The notes under the pieces are model-generated. The model did not search any database. It was not told the DNA's origin and saw only the letters and a list, made by a program, of their open reading frames with translations. A DNA stretch of 64,000 bases, taken from the NCBI RefSeq assembly GCF_020618775.1, contig NZ_JAESVB010000006.1, forward strand, positions 62,001 through 126,000, read 5' to 3'. Below, one piece after another: positions 3,500 through 10,569 of this stretch. Position numbers and translations under genes: made by a program. This DNA comes from Acidisoma silvae (lineage in GTDB: Bacteria; Pseudomonadota; Alphaproteobacteria; Acetobacterales; Acetobacteraceae). How positions within the stretch are numbered: position 1 is the first letter of the stretch; the number at the start of each line of letters is the position of its first letter.

Positions 3500-3537
3500 G
3501 AAATTTTTCTTGAACGAAAAATTTTCCTGTCTACGCT
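3500..3537 (+). promoter_or_regulatory. Promoter with central palindrome for the ligase-nitrilase-cupin operon
   Basis: AAATTTTTC (3501-3509) and GAAAAATTT (3516-3524) form a perfect 9-bp inverted repeat. The 6-base centre, TTGAAC (3510-3515), is itself a good -35 box, with TACGCT (3532-3537) 16 bases downstream as a plausible -10. A repressor on this dyad would mask the -35 element. The XRE-cupin protein encoded at the end of the same operon is the natural candidate. Promoter boxes are inferred by eye; the palindrome is certain. Confidence 0.65.
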
Positions 3538-3564
3538 GCTTTTATCGGATTCAGGAGCGGCAGC

Positions 3565-5001
3565 ATGGCGGGATTCATCGAGCGTCACGGATTATGGTCG
3601 GCGGAGCAAGCAGCGCAGGCGGCTGAACTTGCGGCCCGCATCAAAACCGATGGCATTCGCAATATTCGCGTCGGCTGGGGCGATCAGCACGGCATCGTGC
3701 GCGGCAAGACGTTGACGGCCGGAGAATTCCTGTCGGCCCTGTCCTCGGGCAAGGATTTCCAGCTCGTCACCGCCATTTTCGACACGACCAACCACCCCAT
3801 CGTGCCACCCTTCGGCGCCGAAAATCACCTCAATATTCCGGAAATGATCGGCCTGCCGGATGGCGTGCTGGTGCCGGACCCGGCGACCTTCCATGTCCTG
3901 CCCTGGGTACCCAATACGGGCTGGATTTTGGCGGACGCCTATTTCCGCAATGGCAAACCTTGCCCGCTCTCCACCCGCCAGATTCTGCGCGACCAGCTGG
4001 GCAAGCTGGCGAATGACGGGTTCGGCATGACGGTCGGCCTGGAATTCGAATTCTATGTCTACAAGCTGCTGGACCCGAAGATGGCGCCGGCCGATAGCGG
4101 CTATCCGCCCAGCCCGCCCGAGGTCGAGAATATCGCCCACGGCTATCAGTATCTGACCGAGACGCGGGGCGACGAGGTGGAACCCCTTTACGCCATGCTG
4201 CAAGAAAATTTGGAGGCGCTGGGCCTGCCGCTGGCATCCCTCGAAGACGAATGGGGGCCGGGCCAGTGCGAACTGACCTTCTCGCCTTTGCCGGCCCTGG
4301 AAGCCGCCGACCGCGCGCTGCTGTTCCGCACGGCGGTGAAGCAGCTCTGCCGCCGCCATGGCTATCACGCCAGCTTCATGGCCGTGCCGAAAATCGCCAA
4401 TAGCTTCCCAAGCGGCTGGCATATGCATCAGTCGCTGACGAAAAACGGCGCCAATCTGTTTGCGGCGCGCGAGGGGGATGCGTCACCGCTCTCCGCCACC
4501 GGCATGGCCTATCTGGGCGGCCTGCTGGACCATGCGCCGGCGACGGCGTTGCTGACGACTCCCACCATCAATGGCTATAAACGCCAGCGGCCGGACGGTT
4601 TCGCGCCCTATAAGGCGGCCTGGGCGCAGGAAAATCGCGGGGCCATGCTGCGCGTCATCGGCGACAATGGTGACAGCGCATCGCGTATCGAAAACCGCAT
4701 CGGCGACCCGGCGGCCAATCCCTATCTGTATATCGCCTCCCAGATCATCGCCGGCCGCGCCGGGATCGCAGCCAATAGCGACCCCGGCGCGCCTGTCGCC
4801 GCCGCCTATCTGTCCGACCGCGCCGTGCTGCCCGGCAGCCTGGGCGACGCGCTGACCGCCTTCGCCGGCAGCGAGATTCTCAAATCGGAACTCGGTGAGA
4901 GCTTCCACCACTATTTCCACAGCCTGAAGCAATTCGAATGGAACCGCTTCCTGAGCGCCGTCACGGATTGGGAACATCAGGAATATTTCGAGATGTTCTG
5001 A
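3565..5001 (+). CDS. Glutamine-synthetase-family ligase (probable gamma-glutamyl-amine ligase)
   Basis: The 478-residue product has the GS fold: an N-terminal beta-grasp region with GWGDQHGIVRGK, then catalytic-domain motifs GLEFEFYVY (metal Glu), GWHMHQSL (the HxH region that binds ATP/metal) and SRIENRIGDPAANPYLY (phosphate/glutamate Arg region). It lacks the adenylylation-loop tyrosine context of housekeeping GlnA. It is closer to the PuuA/GlnA3-type enzymes that join glutamate to amines using ATP. The downstream nitrilase begins 2 bases after its stop. The XRE-cupin regulator gene completes the operon, as PuuR accompanies PuuA in E. coli. The substrate is unknown; ammonia ligation is not excluded. 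Confidence 0.8.
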   Translation: MAGFIERHGLWSAEQAAQAAELAARIKTDGIRNIRVGWGDQHGIVRGKTLTAGEFLSALSSGKDFQLVTAIFDTTNHPIVPPFGAENHLNIPEMIGLPDGVLVPDPATFHVLPWVPNTGWILADAYFRNGKPCPLSTRQILRDQLGKLANDGFGMTVGLEFEFYVYKLLDPKMAPADSGYPPSPPEVENIAHGYQYLTETRGDEVEPLYAMLQENLEALGLPLASLEDEWGPGQCELTFSPLPALEAADRALLFRTAVKQLCRRHGYHASFMAVPKIANSFPSGWHMHQSLTKNGANLFAAREGDASPLSATGMAYLGGLLDHAPATALLTTPTINGYKRQRPDGFAPYKAAWAQENRGAMLRVIGDNGDSASRIENRIGDPAANPYLYIASQIIAGRAGIAANSDPGAPVAAAYLSDRAVLPGSLGDALTAFAGSEILKSELGESFHHYFHSLKQFEWNRFLSAVTDWEHQEYFEMF

Positions 5002-5003
5002 CC

Positions 5004-5942
5004 ATGGACAAGCTGCATCTGGGTATCGCCCAGCTTCGCCCGGCCTGGGGCAACAAGGCCCGCACGGTCGAGATCATCACGGCGGCAATCGCCGAGGCCG
5101 CGGCGCGCGATATCGGCCTGCTGGCCTTTTCGGAGACTTTTCTGAGCGGCTATCCCTTCTGGGTCTGCCGCACCAATGGCGCCGCCTTCGATGACGCGCG
5201 GCAGGGCCGCGCCTATGCGCAGTTCGTTGATTCGGCTGTTGAAATCAGCGGGCCGGAACTGGCGTTGGTCGCGGAAGCCGCGCAGGACCACGGCGTCTCG
5301 GTCTATCTCGGCATCAATGAGCGCGGCGCACGCGCCGGGCGCGGCACCGTCTGGTGCACGCTCGTCACCATCGATGCCGAGCGCGGCATCGTCGGCGCCC
5401 ATCGCAAGCTGATGCCGACGCATGACGAGCGGCTGGTCTGGGGCATCGGCGATGCCGAAGGCCTGCGCTGCCACGCTTTCGGCGGTTTTCGCGTCGGCGG
5501 GCTGAACTGCTGGGAAAACTGGATGACCCATGCGCGGTCGGCGCTCTACGCGGATGGCGAGGACGTGCATATCTCCGTCTGGCCGGGGAATGAAGCGGTG
5601 ACGAAGGGCCTGCCGATCTTCGCCGCCCAGGAAGGCCGCATATGGTGCGCCAGCGTCTGCGGCCTGCTGTCGCTGTCCGACGTGCCTGAGGATTTCGAGT
5701 TCTATACGGACCTCAAAGCCGAGGGACTGGACGTCATCTTTGCCGGCGGGTCCGGCATCTATGACCCGAATCAGGCCTGCGTCGCGCGGCTGGACCCCGG
5801 TGTGGAAGGCATCGCGTCCACGCTGATAGACCGCGCCAGCCTTTATGCGGCGCGCCAGGGTTTCGACCAAAGCGGCCATTACGCGCGGCCGGATATTTTC
5901 GATCTGTCGATCCAGCGGCGCCGGGACGGCTCCCATGGATGA
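5004..5942 (+). CDS. Nitrilase (carbon-nitrogen hydrolase family)
   Basis: The 312-residue product carries the Glu-Lys-Cys triad: E44 in FSETFLSGYP, K135 in HRKLMPTHDERLVWG and C169 in GLNCWENW. The HRKL-PTH-ER-VWG block and the CWEN motif are typical of true nitrilases (nitrile to carboxylate plus ammonia) rather than amidases. The frame extends upstream to 4938, but ATG 5004 fits the family N-terminus and lies 2 bases past the ligase stop. Its stop overlaps the regulator start by 8 bases. No signal peptide is seen, so it is cytoplasmic. The natural nitrile is unknown; amidase activity on a glutamylated product is an alternative. Confidence 0.85.
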   Translation: MDKLHLGIAQLRPAWGNKARTVEIITAAIAEAAARDIGLLAFSETFLSGYPFWVCRTNGAAFDDARQGRAYAQFVDSAVEISGPELALVAEAAQDHGVSVYLGINERGARAGRGTVWCTLVTIDAERGIVGAHRKLMPTHDERLVWGIGDAEGLRCHAFGGFRVGGLNCWENWMTHARSALYADGEDVHISVWPGNEAVTKGLPIFAAQEGRIWCASVCGLLSLSDVPEDFEFYTDLKAEGLDVIFAGGSGIYDPNQACVARLDPGVEGIASTLIDRASLYAARQGFDQSGHYARPDIFDLSIQRRRDGSHG

Positions 5943-6531
5943 GGCCGCCTATATCACCGCCTTCTGCGAAAAGCTGAAATCTATCCGCCGCGACAAGGAT
6001 TTGACGCTGGAAGACCTGGCGCGGGCCAGCGGCGTCTCCATCTCGACGATTTCCAAGATCGAGAACCAGCAGCAGAAGCCGGGTTTCGAGACGGTTTTGA
6101 AGATCGCCCGCGCCCTGCATGTGAATTTCGTCCATATGCTGGACCCGCCGGAACCGGCACCGGTGAAGACCGCGCGCCGCGTGGTGACGCGCGCGGCCGA
6201 TGCGCCGGTCTATAACAGCGCGCATTACGGCTACGCCGCCCATGCGACGGAACTCGCCAATAAGACGATGGTGCCGCTGCTCATGCATATCCGTAACCGG
6301 GAGCTGCCGCCGCTCGCGGACTGGAGCGTGCATGACGGCGAGGAATACGCCTATGTGATCGAAGGCGAAGTGGCGCTGCATATGGAGCATTACGCGCCGG
6401 TGCAGCTGCATAAGGGCGATAGCTGCTATTTCGACAGTACCATGCGCCATGCCTATGTGGCGGTGGACGGCGAAGCCGTGGTGCTGTCGATCTGCCTGTC
6501 GATCGTGCCGTTCAAAAGCGAGGTGCCCTAG
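5935..6531 (+). CDS. XRE-family regulator with C-terminal cupin
   Basis: The 198-residue product has an N-terminal helix-turn-helix (about residues 12-65; LEDLARASGVSISTISKIEN) and a C-terminal single cupin (about 110-190; HDGEEYAYVIEGEV, then a HKGDSCYFDSTMRHAY second motif). This is the architecture of PuuR-like repressors that sense small amines or amino acids. The ATG at 5935 overlaps the nitrilase stop (ATGGATGA), so the three genes are translationally linked. Autoregulation through the palindrome at 3501-3524 is inferred. Confidence 0.9.
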   Translation: MDEAAYITAFCEKLKSIRRDKDLTLEDLARASGVSISTISKIENQQQKPGFETVLKIARALHVNFVHMLDPPEPAPVKTARRVVTRAADAPVYNSAHYGYAAHATELANKTMVPLLMHIRNRELPPLADWSVHDGEEYAYVIEGEVALHMEHYAPVQLHKGDSCYFDSTMRHAYVAVDGEAVVLSICLSIVPFKSEVP

Positions 6532-6683: not shown

Positions 6684-9600
6684 TTGCCCCCCGACATGCC
6701 TGCCGAGGGTTCCACCCGCGCCGCGCCGACCGTAACGCCCTACTCCACCGAAGATCTCGCCCGGGTCTTTGATCCCGCCGTGCTGCGGCGCGGCCGGTCG
6801 CTGATTCTTCTGGAAGCCGTCACCGTCTCGCTCAAGGACGCCTCCATCGCGGTGGTCGCGGAGCATCTCGGCACACGCTATACCGGCAGCATCACGCCCT
6901 CGCCGCACGGCAGCCGGGTCGGCTTTCTAAACCGCTGCAGCTGCGGCCAGTCATCGTGCAGCCATCTCGCGGCCGGCGCCCTGGCGGCGCTCGACCGTTT
7001 TCCGTCTGTGCGCCGCGCCGAGCAGAGCAGCCTTTTGGAAGCGCTGTCGGCCCCCGCCAAGGCCGGGCCGATCAAAGCCGGATCGGCGTTGCCGACCCCG
7101 GCCAGCCCCGCCGTTTCGGCGGCCGGTGAGCGCCAGAAACTCGTTTTCGAGCTTTATCCCGGCGAATTGCCCCATGCCTGTTTCGTCGCGACCCTGCTGG
7201 TCGGCGAACGCACGGGCGCGGTGACGCCGACCACGCCGGCCCGCATCCTGGCCGATCGGACCAATGCCGAAAGCAGCCGCATCATGGCCAGAACGCTCGG
7301 CTCGGGCACGAACAGCCGGGTTGCCGTTGCACCCGAAGGCGTCGCCGCCGTGCTCGGCCTTTTGCCGCGCCTGGGCAAGGCCCGCTGGCATGCCAATCAG
7401 CGCCCGCTTGTCCTGGGCGAGGAGCGCGCTTTTCAGGCGAATGTGCCGCCGAACCTGCCCCCCGATTCCGCCGTCATCCTGGGCGATACCGGCCCCTGGT
7501 ATGTCGACGCCGCGACCGGCGCGGTCGGGCGCGTCCGGCTGCGCCAGGCGGCCACACCGCAAACGCAGACGGGCACATCGTCCCGCGTCTTCCGCCCCGC
7601 CAGCCGTCCCAATAACCTGACCTTTCAGCGGCCAGAGCCGCCGGCGCCGCGCTTCACCGGCAAAAAGGCTGCCCCCACGCGGTCCCGCCATGACCGTGAG
7701 GCCGACCGGCGGCCGGACCCGATCATCGCGGCCGCCGCCGGCCCCATCATTCTCGATCAGCCCCCGGTGCCTGTCATCCGCCTGCGCAAGGTCGAGTCCC
7801 TGGGGGATTTCGGCCGCGTCCAGCAGGTCGACGCCATGACCGTCGATTTCGACTATGCCGGCACGCTGACACCCGGCGATGACGAACGCCAGTTCCTGCC
7901 CATGGCGAAATCGGTCGGCGGCGGCGCGCCGAGCTTCGTACGCCGCGACCGTGCCGCCGAGACGGCCGCGCTGGAAGCCTTGCGGCAGGACGGCCTCAGC
8001 CAGATGCGCATCGCCGAGGGCGCGACCGCCAAGGGCCGCATGGTCTTCGTCTATCATGGGCGTGACGCCTCCGAACGCTGGCAGGCCTTCGTCACCGAAC
8101 GCGTGCCGGCGCTGGAACGCTTAGGCTGGCGCAACCTCATCGACCGCGACTTCGGGCCGCGCCTTGTCGAAACGGTGGGCGACTACGACGTCCGTATCGA
8201 AGACGCGGATAGCGGCGAATTCTCGCTCGACTTCGGCATCGAAATCGACGGCAAGCGCATTCCGCTGCTGCCCATTCTGTCCCGCCTGCTGGAGCGCGGC
8301 GGCATGGACTCCGCCAAGATCACCGATGGCGAGCTGATCACCAGCCTGGATGACGGCCGCATTCTGAAGCTGCCGGCCGAGCGCATCCGCCGCCTGCTGT
8401 CGGTGATGGAAGACCTGATCGAGGCGGCCCGCCGCAGCGGGGAAAGCCGCCTGCTGCTGGGCAAGGGCGAAGCCGCCGGCGTGCTGGACCTGGAAGACCT
8501 GCTCACCACCCGGTGGGAGAATGCCAACGCCATCGAGGCTTATACCCAGAATTTCCGGGGCGGCGCGGATGCCCCGCCCGTTACCATCCCCGCGAGTTTC
8601 AAGGCGACGCTGCGCGCCTATCAGCAGCAGGGCGTCGACTGGTTGCAGCATCTGCGCGGCTTAGGCCTTGGCGGCTTCCTGGCCGATGACATGGGCCTGG
8701 GCAAAACCGCCCAGACCATCGCCCATATCGTCATCGAGGAGACGGAGGGCCGGCTGGACCGTCCCGCGCTGATCGTGGTGCCGACAAGCCTGGTCGCCAA
8801 CTGGGCCGCCGAGCTTGGCAAATTCGCGCCGCATCTGCGCGTCGCCGTGCTGCACGGCCTGGACCGCCACGAGCGCCGGTCCGACCTTGACGGCATTCAT
8901 GTCGTCATCACGACCTATACCGTTCTCGCCCGCGATGTGGAGGAGATGAAGCAATTGTCCTGGCATCTTGTGGTGCTGGACGAAGCGCAGGTCATCAAAA
9001 GCCCGGACGCGAAGGCGACGCGCGCGGTATGCCAGCTGGAAACGCGGCATCGCCTGTGCCTGTCCGGCACGCCGATCGAAAACAACCTGCAAGAATTGTG
9101 GTCGGAATTTGCCTTCCTCAATCCCGGCCTGCTGGGCGACCGCAAAGGCTTCACCAAGCGTTTCCGCACGCCGATCGAAAAGAACAACGACGCCCTGCGC
9201 CGTGGCCAGCTCATGCGCCGCATCAAGCCCTTCCTGCTGCGCCGCACGAAGGCGGAGGTCGCGACCGATCTGCCGCCCAAGCACACCATTCTGCGCCGGA
9301 TCGACCTGGCACCGGATCAGCGCGAATTGTACGAGACCATCCGTGCCACGCTGCATGACGAGGTGCGCGAGAAGATGGCCGACCTGACGGCGGCCCAGGG
9401 TCGCATCGTGGTGCTGGATGCCCTGCTGAAGCTGCGCCAGGTCTGCTGCGACCCGCGCCTGGTCAAGCTGCCTTCCGCGCGCAGCGTCGAATCCTCCAGC
9501 AAGCTCGATGAGCTTCTGGACATGATCACCGAGATGCTTCCCGAAGGCCGCCGCATTCTGCTGTTCTCTCAGTTCACGACGATGCTCGACCTGATCAAGC

Positions 9601-10022
9601 CGCGTCTGGCCGAGGCCGGGGTGAAGTTTGTGGAACTGCGCGGCGATACGCGCGATCGCGCCGAGCCTGTGCGGGCCTTCGAGGCCGGCGAAGTGTCGCT
9701 GTTCCTGATCAGCCTCAAGGCCGGCGGCCGTGGCCTGAACCTGACCTCCGCCGATACCGTCATCCATTACGACCCCTGGTGGAATCCGGCGGCAGAAGAT
9801 CAGGCATCCGACCGCGCCTATCGCATCGGCCAGACCAAGCCCGTTTTTGTCTATAAGATGATCGCGGCCGATACGGTGGAAGATCGCATCGTGGAATTGC
9901 AGCGACGCAAGGCCGATCTCGCGAATATCGCCCTGAGCGAGGATGGCGACTTCACCAGTTCCGAGATCGATGACGTGGAATTCCTGTTCGGCCATGGGCC
10001 GGAGGAAAAGCTCGCCGCGTGA
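6684..10022 (+). CDS. SWIM zinc-finger SNF2-family helicase
   Basis: The 1112-residue protein begins with a SWIM zinc finger (C85-x-C87-x4-C92-x-H94) and a variable region to about residue 640. A two-lobed SNF2 ATPase follows: Walker A DDMGLGKTAQT near 668-678, a DEAQ box at 766-769, SGTPIENNLQELWSEF, then the helicase C lobe with LLFSQFTTMLD, GGRGLNLT and QASDRAYRIGQT. Bacterial members are ATP-driven DNA translocases associated with RNA polymerase or nucleoid transactions; the exact role is unknown. TTG 6684 has GGGAG at proper spacing, whereas ATG 6696 would sit too far from it. The GNAT gene follows 22 bases later. Confidence 0.92.
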   Translation: MPPDMPAEGSTRAAPTVTPYSTEDLARVFDPAVLRRGRSLILLEAVTVSLKDASIAVVAEHLGTRYTGSITPSPHGSRVGFLNRCSCGQSSCSHLAAGALAALDRFPSVRRAEQSSLLEALSAPAKAGPIKAGSALPTPASPAVSAAGERQKLVFELYPGELPHACFVATLLVGERTGAVTPTTPARILADRTNAESSRIMARTLGSGTNSRVAVAPEGVAAVLGLLPRLGKARWHANQRPLVLGEERAFQANVPPNLPPDSAVILGDTGPWYVDAATGAVGRVRLRQAATPQTQTGTSSRVFRPASRPNNLTFQRPEPPAPRFTGKKAAPTRSRHDREADRRPDPIIAAAAGPIILDQPPVPVIRLRKVESLGDFGRVQQVDAMTVDFDYAGTLTPGDDERQFLPMAKSVGGGAPSFVRRDRAAETAALEALRQDGLSQMRIAEGATAKGRMVFVYHGRDASERWQAFVTERVPALERLGWRNLIDRDFGPRLVETVGDYDVRIEDADSGEFSLDFGIEIDGKRIPLLPILSRLLERGGMDSAKITDGELITSLDDGRILKLPAERIRRLLSVMEDLIEAARRSGESRLLLGKGEAAGVLDLEDLLTTRWENANAIEAYTQNFRGGADAPPVTIPASFKATLRAYQQQGVDWLQHLRGLGLGGFLADDMGLGKTAQTIAHIVIEETEGRLDRPALIVVPTSLVANWAAELGKFAPHLRVAVLHGLDRHERRSDLDGIHVVITTYTVLARDVEEMKQLSWHLVVLDEAQVIKSPDAKATRAVCQLETRHRLCLSGTPIENNLQELWSEFAFLNPGLLGDRKGFTKRFRTPIEKNNDALRRGQLMRRIKPFLLRRTKAEVATDLPPKHTILRRIDLAPDQRELYETIRATLHDEVREKMADLTAAQGRIVVLDALLKLRQVCCDPRLVKLPSARSVESSSKLDELLDMITEMLPEGRRILLFSQFTTMLDLIKPRLAEAGVKFVELRGDTRDRAEPVRAFEAGEVSLFLISLKAGGRGLNLTSADTVIHYDPWWNPAAEDQASDRAYRIGQTKPVFVYKMIAADTVEDRIVELQRRKADLANIALSEDGDFTSSEIDDVEFLFGHGPEEKLAA

Positions 10023-10044
10023 ACGGACAAGGACAAGGATTCAG

Positions 10045-10569
10045 ATGACCTTACCTGTGGATTCCTTGGAGATTCGCAACGCGGTGGCGGCTGACGCCGC
10101 CGAATTGACGGCGCTGCTCAATGCGGTGATCGCCAAAGGCGGCACGACCGCGCTGCAAGACCCTTACACGGCCGAAGCGCTGGACCATGCCTATATCACC
10201 GGACCTGACGTCCATTGCTGCTTCGTTGCGGTGGACCGCGCAAGCGGGCGCATCGAAGGCTTCCAGACGCTGGGGCGCAATCCCGCACTTCCCGATGATA
10301 TTGGCGATATCGGCACTTTCGCGCGGCTGGGCGGCACGCAGCGCGGCGTCGGCCGGGCGCTGTTCAATGCGACCCGGCAGCGGGCGACCGAACTAGGCCT
10401 TGCCGCCATCAATGCCATGATCCGCGCCGACAATACCGGCGGCCTCGCCTTCTACGGCAAGCAGGGCTTCATCGACCATGACGTGATCGCTGGCGTGCCG
10501 CTGAAGGATGGCACCAAGGTCGATCGGATCGTCAAACGCCACAGTCTGCTCCCCCCCGAGATCGGCTGA
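10045..10569 (+). CDS. GNAT-family N-acetyltransferase
   Basis: The 174-residue product has the GNAT fold, with the acetyl-CoA-binding segment around QRGVGRALFNATRQRA (Q/RxxGxG/A type) and a C-terminal NTGGLAFYGKQGF strand-helix. It transfers acetyl from acetyl-CoA to an unknown amine acceptor. ATG 10045 has AAGGACAAGGATTC upstream. The longer open frame overlaps the helicase and is not needed. Co-transcription with the SNF2 gene is likely from the 22-base gap. A protein target is possible but not shown. Confidence 0.85.
   Translation: MTLPVDSLEIRNAVAADAAELTALLNAVIAKGGTTALQDPYTAEALDHAYITGPDVHCCFVAVDRASGRIEGFQTLGRNPALPDDIGDIGTFARLGGTQRGVGRALFNATRQRATELGLAAINAMIRADNTGGLAFYGKQGFIDHDVIAGVPLKDGTKVDRIVKRHSLLPPEIG

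Follow-up and report, generated by a model that had tools for sequence, protein, structure and literature searches.

The aniline and 1-naphthylamine dioxygenase modules (AtdA1-A5, TdnQ/T, DcaQ, NpaA1-A5) follow a tag-convert-untag layout, in which a glutamine synthetase (GS)-like ligase, a Rieske dioxygenase with its partners and an amidotransferase act on an arylamine. NpaA1 is a gamma-glutamyl synthetase acting on 1-naphthylamine and anilines, and enzymes of this type (gamma-glutamyl organic-amine synthetases, GoaS) are reported not to accept ammonia (PMC11335346). The Puu pathway of E. coli (PuuA, PuuD, PuuR, PuuB, PuuC) has a comparable logic of gamma-glutamylation, conversion to the acid and removal of glutamate, and also combines a GS-like ligase with an XRE-cupin regulator. 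The Nit1C cyanide/nitrile cluster is a conserved bacterial operon around a branch-1 nitrilase, with radical SAM, acetyltransferase, AIR-synthase and flavoprotein genes and without a ligase; the word glutamine is absent from the paper describing it (Podar 2005, PMC1199592).

Here we analyse a locus in a stretch of 64,000 nucleotides of the Acidisoma silvae genome (the window), where a GoaS-type ligase adjoins a nitrilase. Its features, in window coordinates, are as follows:

3501 to 3524, no strand assigned: palindromic predicted operator, AAATTTTTC-TTGAAC-GAAAAATTT, a predicted site for the XRE-cupin regulator.
3565 to 5001, forward strand: GS-like ligase, a predicted gamma-glutamyl organic-amine synthetase (GoaS type), 478 aa; Gln-synt_C 8e-83 (Pfam).
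5004 to 5942, forward strand: branch-1-type nitrilase (E44-K135-C169, CWEN), 312 aa; CN_hydrolase 8.7e-31 (Pfam).
5935 to 6531, forward strand: XRE-cupin transcriptional regulator, 198 aa; HTH_3 6.7e-15 and Cupin_2 1.1e-11 (Pfam).

An earlier note on this DNA had recorded the same three genes, and its coordinates, its E44-K135-C169/CWEN assignment, the 2-base gap between ligase and nitrilase and the 8-base overlap between nitrilase and regulator are all reproduced in the open reading frames of the window. Our search of the open-licence literature likewise agrees with its statement that no pathway with this gene set has been described, and yielded no publication on a GoaS-type or other GS-like ligase together with a nitrilase. 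Scans for sigma-70 promoters and terminators gave no signal above shuffled sequence. The cassette is followed by a large helicase-like ORF (window 6684-10022, typed by reading), not seen there in A. cellulosilyticum, where a gene resembling window 9943-10569 sits nearer the cassette.

The best match of the ligase among solved structures is NpaA1 (8wwu; E 4.5e-124, with the runner-up at 3.1e-54), to which it is 44% identical, and identity to the Delftia pC1-1 ligase reaches 50%. In a tree of 30 sequences, relied on for broad placement alone as some deep branches are long, a branch (93/95) has all nine cassette ligases identified in this study on the same side, together with ligases whose genes for the most part adjoin those of Rieske dioxygenases, and far from PuuA and GlnA. 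E. coli PuuA joins a different Acidisoma ligase in the same tree, and GlnA joins yet another. By this grouping the ligase belongs with the GoaS enzymes, apart from GlnA-type glutamine synthetases. The N-terminal amine-entry loop of GoaS enzymes is present, and the equivalents of NpaA1 E232, E234 and W235 (amine pocket) and F75 and F86 (tunnel aromatics) are kept at all five positions. Position 201 is a tyrosine, the residue reported for AtdA1. In place of the GS flap residue E327 there is a phenylalanine (NpaA1 and the Delftia ligase are likewise hydrophobic here), and in place of GS Y397 a leucine, while glutamate- and metal-site residues are retained.

These retained residues, together with the Gln-synt_C domain, are what would be expected if the ligase were an ordinary glutamine synthetase re-assimilating ammonia released by the nitrilase. 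We consider this extremely unlikely, given that the tree puts the ligase far from GlnA, that E327 and Y397 are both replaced, that the genome encodes a separate GlnA-like protein (L001) with both residues, and that ammonia is reportedly no substrate of GoaS enzymes (PMC11335346). On the strength of the tree and the flap residue an ordinary GlnA function is rejected, in keeping with the earlier note. Loss of the flap glutamate is consistent with organic amines, not ammonia, as the predicted substrates, and the kept tunnel aromatics would allow an aromatic or hydrophobic amine. The cassette ligases make up a branch of their own and have a characteristic amine-loop sequence. Its segment TTNHPIVPPFG is conserved across cassettes (P becomes A in Hyphomicrobium, and I becomes V in Streptomyces), and, apart from the kept positions, the loop is unlike that of the dioxygenase-linked arylamine ligases. 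These loop changes point away from plain aniline as the substrate, and with them an aromatic substrate is not assured.

The description of the locus as a rebuilt Puu-type system, with which the earlier note began, does not hold as to ancestry; the likeness to Puu lies in the tag-convert-untag logic. The ligase is 25% identical to E. coli PuuA, against 44-50% to the aromatic-amine ligases, and scores 226.7 bits of the 650 required by the NCBIfam GGputSyn model, so it is not a PuuA-type ligase. Nor is the regulator a PuuR-type repressor, with 23% identity to PuuR and 34 bits against a model cut-off of 211. These identities, together with the ligase tree, rule out direct Puu kinship. Apart from the window cassette, the Acidisoma genome carries a Puu-type locus (G000:C11:28982-31945), where the PuuA-like ligase that groups with PuuA in the tree has, nearby on the opposite strand, a PuuD-like gene whose product is 43% identical to its E. 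coli counterpart.

The top solved-structure matches of the second gene product are nitrilases, NIT4 and cyanide-degrading enzymes. With a Glu-Lys-Cys set in a CN_hydrolase domain and true nitrilases as its nearest kin, it belongs by sequence to the branch-1 nitrilases, and E44, K135, C169 and the CWEN motif are invariant in an alignment of the nine cassette nitrilases. It is predicted to hydrolyse the nitrile of a glutamylated compound. The alphaproteobacterial cassette nitrilases form one clade (100/96), whose closest relatives outside the cassette are a sister group of about 38-44% identity. To our knowledge, it is unclear what most bacterial nitrilases do in nature. No ligase lies near the sister-group nitrilases in the stretches read, and several of them adjoin a LysR-type gene instead (L026, L044, L045 and L047, typed by the N-terminus); this is a second recurring nitrilase context. 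Two genomes carry two sister-group nitrilase genes in tandem (L060 and L061; G775:C16 and G751:C11). In a further locus (L025, 9455-12004) a sister-group nitrilase is followed by a cysteine-synthase-like gene, typed by its N-terminal residues alone, a pairing by which 3-cyanoalanine could be the nitrilase substrate.

A nitrilase scan of genome contigs revealed enzymes 54-59% identical to that of the window in Poseidonocella, Azorhizobium, Mangrovicoccus, Hyphomicrobium and Hansschlegelia, each with a 68-75% identical ligase directly 5' of it. The same arrangement is found in three genomes of Acidisoma itself, including A. cellulosilyticum, the nearest named relative found, whose nitrilase is 89% identical to that of the window. 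All eight alphaproteobacterial genomes (six genera) with a close nitrilase (at least 54% identical) therefore have a close ligase relative directly upstream, and a Streptomyces tendae plasmid pair (ligase 56%, nitrilase 43-45% identical) brings the cassettes to nine. This plasmid excepted, nitrilases of about 44% identity or below had no such ligase in any of the stretches read. Comparison of the window with A. cellulosilyticum, in which the ligase-nitrilase gap is 166 bases as opposed to 2, gives a dN/dS of 0.114 for the ligase, 0.117 for the nitrilase and 0.136 for the regulator. Purifying selection thus acts on all three Acidisoma genes, which are a real, conserved unit. Recurrence in eight alphaproteobacterial genomes and a Streptomyces plasmid, together with the low dN/dS, makes the pairing more than chance and rules out fortuitous adjacency.

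Surveys of Alphaproteobacteria, of the order of Azorhizobium and of the family of Mangrovicoccus gave no further close cassette, indicating that the cassette is rare and patchy. Its genomic neighbourhoods differ: in Poseidonocella, Azorhizobium and Mangrovicoccus its 5' flank contains a DUF1097 gene and a divergently oriented gene of the isochorismatase family, whereas Hansschlegelia has a dimethylformamidase-like gene and a divergently oriented gene for an amino-acid permease. Genes for a binding protein, permeases and an ATPase, together an ABC transporter of the sugar or AI-2 type (L046 1154-5880), lie 3' of the third Acidisoma-genus cassette (genome G004). Such a distribution, in few of the genomes searched and in differing neighbourhoods, would suit two parallel detoxification functions under one regulator, with the ligase blunting toxic amines, the nitrilase removing unrelated nitriles and no shared intermediate, and the lack of an untagging gene in Acidisoma would suit it too. 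We nonetheless judge this unlikely, as strict ligase-nitrilase adjacency across Alphaproteobacteria and Streptomyces, with an amidotransferase as third gene in six cassettes, argues for one pathway.

This additional gene, of the class-I glutamine amidotransferase type, lies 3' of the nitrilase in Poseidonocella, Azorhizobium, Mangrovicoccus, Hyphomicrobium, Hansschlegelia and Streptomyces (six of nine cassettes), and the Cys, His and Glu of its family are intact and invariant. None of the three Acidisoma-genus cassettes has this gene alongside, and elsewhere in the Acidisoma genome the remaining matches are PuuD-like or distant, with no clear orthologue. The operon described in the earlier note is borne out as conserved, though the trio on which that note was built misses the amidotransferase of the commoner form: of the nine cassettes, those of the window genome and A. 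cellulosilyticum alone show the exact trio without it. The fuller cassette of ligase, nitrilase and amidotransferase reads as an arylamine module with the dioxygenase replaced by a nitrilase.

The amidotransferase also bears on the order of the reactions. The earlier note had linked nitrile hydrolysis with gamma-glutamylation, which remains the best reading, but had put hydrolysis first, so that the nitrilase would act on a free aminonitrile and the ligase would glutamylate the resulting amino acid. The same genes and the same conservation fit this order, and gene order leaves reaction order free. It is distinctly unlikely, however, because the amidotransferase 3' of the nitrilase in six cassettes would immediately undo the work of the ligase, the known aniline and Puu pathways put conversion between tagging and untagging, and the ligase retains the hydrophobic tunnel residues of NpaA1. 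The presence of the amidotransferase in the commoner form favours glutamylation before, rather than after, nitrile hydrolysis.

Most relatives of the ligase that we read adjoin Rieske dioxygenases, and many adjoin amidotransferases. Ring-hydroxylating dioxygenase genes lie near the ligases of Pseudomonas JS3066, Delftia, Caballeronia, Hydrogenophaga, Sphingobium and Shinella, and likewise of Rhodococcus gordoniae, Corynebacterium, Nitratireductor, Novosphingobium, Methylobacterium and Polaromonas; none is annotated near the Nostoc HK-01 relative. No dioxygenase was found near the cassette in the window or among the annotated and Pfam-scanned neighbours of its relatives, a subset of all neighbours. 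On the Prescottella equi plasmid p1-WH99 (L082, 1017-5485) an amidotransferase, an AmiS/UreI transporter, an amidase and a GoaS-type ligase lie consecutively, which is another swap of the converting enzyme. The pattern across relatives is one of a shared glutamylation module whose converting enzyme can be exchanged, the nitrilase being the converter in the cassette. The Prescottella array, joining a related ligase to an amidase, a transporter and an amidotransferase, also lends some colour to the idea that our nitrilase-fold protein is itself an amidase, for example one freeing the amine from an amide before glutamylation in the manner of a herbicide-type amidase. This is very unlikely, since its sequence is nearest true nitrilases and NIT4, not the amidases of the superfamily, and E44, K135 and C169-W-E-N do not vary.

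Regulator type varies among the nine cassettes: six have an XRE-cupin protein (the five others being 45-91% identical to that of the window), an RpiR-type gene is nearby in Hyphomicrobium and G004, and Streptomyces has a GntR gene. The palindrome AAATTTTTCTTGAACGAAAAATTT at 3501-3524, with perfect 9-base arms, lies about 40 bases 5' of the ligase start, and contains a 16-base core, TTYTCKTDVAMGARAA (3505-3520). Every one of the six XRE-cupin cassettes has this core 5' of its ligase, and the three without this regulator lack it there, although its presence at the six is not independent evidence as the pattern was derived from them. The independent evidence for an operator is the absence of the core where the XRE-cupin regulator is absent and its rarity elsewhere: there is no other occurrence in the 362 kb of loci scanned, and it occurs in one place in the whole 5.4 Mb Acidisoma genome (G000). 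Further operator sites that might hint at a wider regulon are thus not found in G000. Eight whole genomes yielded three core sites outside cassettes, against one match for a reversed control pattern, and no cassette homologue was found in the stretches read around these sites (G003:C1, G423:C2 and G420:C233).

Taken together, we hold with moderate confidence that a self-regulated catabolic cassette for an amine-bearing nitrile, working by tagging, conversion and untagging, is the best explanation. The analysis shows the gene structure, its conservation, the family placement, the retained catalytic residues and a shared, rare motif resembling an operator, from which each reaction, the sequence of the reactions, what the substrate is and which way regulation works are inferred. 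The ligase would couple glutamate through its gamma-carboxyl onto the amino group of the substrate, in an ATP-dependent manner. The nitrilase would then act on the glutamylated product, turning its nitrile into a carboxylic acid with release of ammonia, and the amidotransferase-type hydrolase, in most cassettes, would strip the glutamate to leave an amino acid. In Acidisoma, whose operon lacks this hydrolase, either a protein encoded elsewhere would perform the untagging or the glutamylated acid would be the end product. The XRE-cupin protein is postulated to repress its own operon through the palindrome 5' of the ligase, with repression relieved when an intermediate binds the cupin domain.

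The proposed order is that of the aniline and Puu pathways, and the amidotransferase has a function in it. In its favour are, first, the six intact amidotransferases, which reproduce the layout of the aniline pathway; second, the strict pairing, the GoaS placement, the kept ligase residues and the invariant nitrilase E-K-C; and lastly, purifying selection and an operator motif exactly where the XRE-cupin regulator occurs. Against it count the lack of an amidotransferase in the Acidisoma operon and of a clear orthologue in the genome, the differing regulator types, the amine-binding loop unlike that of the arylamine ligases, and the fact that nitrilases are promiscuous, so that the partner reaction could be a different one. 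More tentatively, and with somewhat less than an even chance in our estimation, gamma-glutamylation may protect the amine-bearing nitrile, or present it, to a dedicated, gamma-glutamyl-nitrile-specific nitrilase in an undescribed catabolic route. If true, nitrile hydrolysis would join dioxygenation and amine oxidation as a third chemistry that draws on the glutamylation module, showing the module of aniline degradation to be a general, exchangeable front end, and would also provide nitrilases accepting gamma-glutamyl nitriles. A nitrilase linked to such a ligase, with an operator of its own and, in most relatives, an enzyme for untagging, offers a directly testable substrate class.

Compared with the described systems, the cassette resembles Nit1C in being a conserved operon around a branch-1 nitrilase, but its gene content and the score of the window nitrilase against the Nit6803 family model (147 bits, cut-off 502.6) rule out membership. 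From the Puu pathway the Acidisoma operon differs in lacking an oxidase or dehydrogenase as well as an untagging gene. It is closest to the arylamine modules, with which it shares the ligase family and, in its fuller form, an amidotransferase of the same superfamily (about 25-37%). It is not itself an Atd/Tdn/Npa module, as a nitrilase stands where these have a Rieske dioxygenase and its partners beside the ligase and amidotransferase; its regulators (XRE-cupin, RpiR or GntR) and the missing amidotransferase of Acidisoma are further differences. The cassette is a variant of known glutamylation-based amine catabolism, not a separate kind of system.
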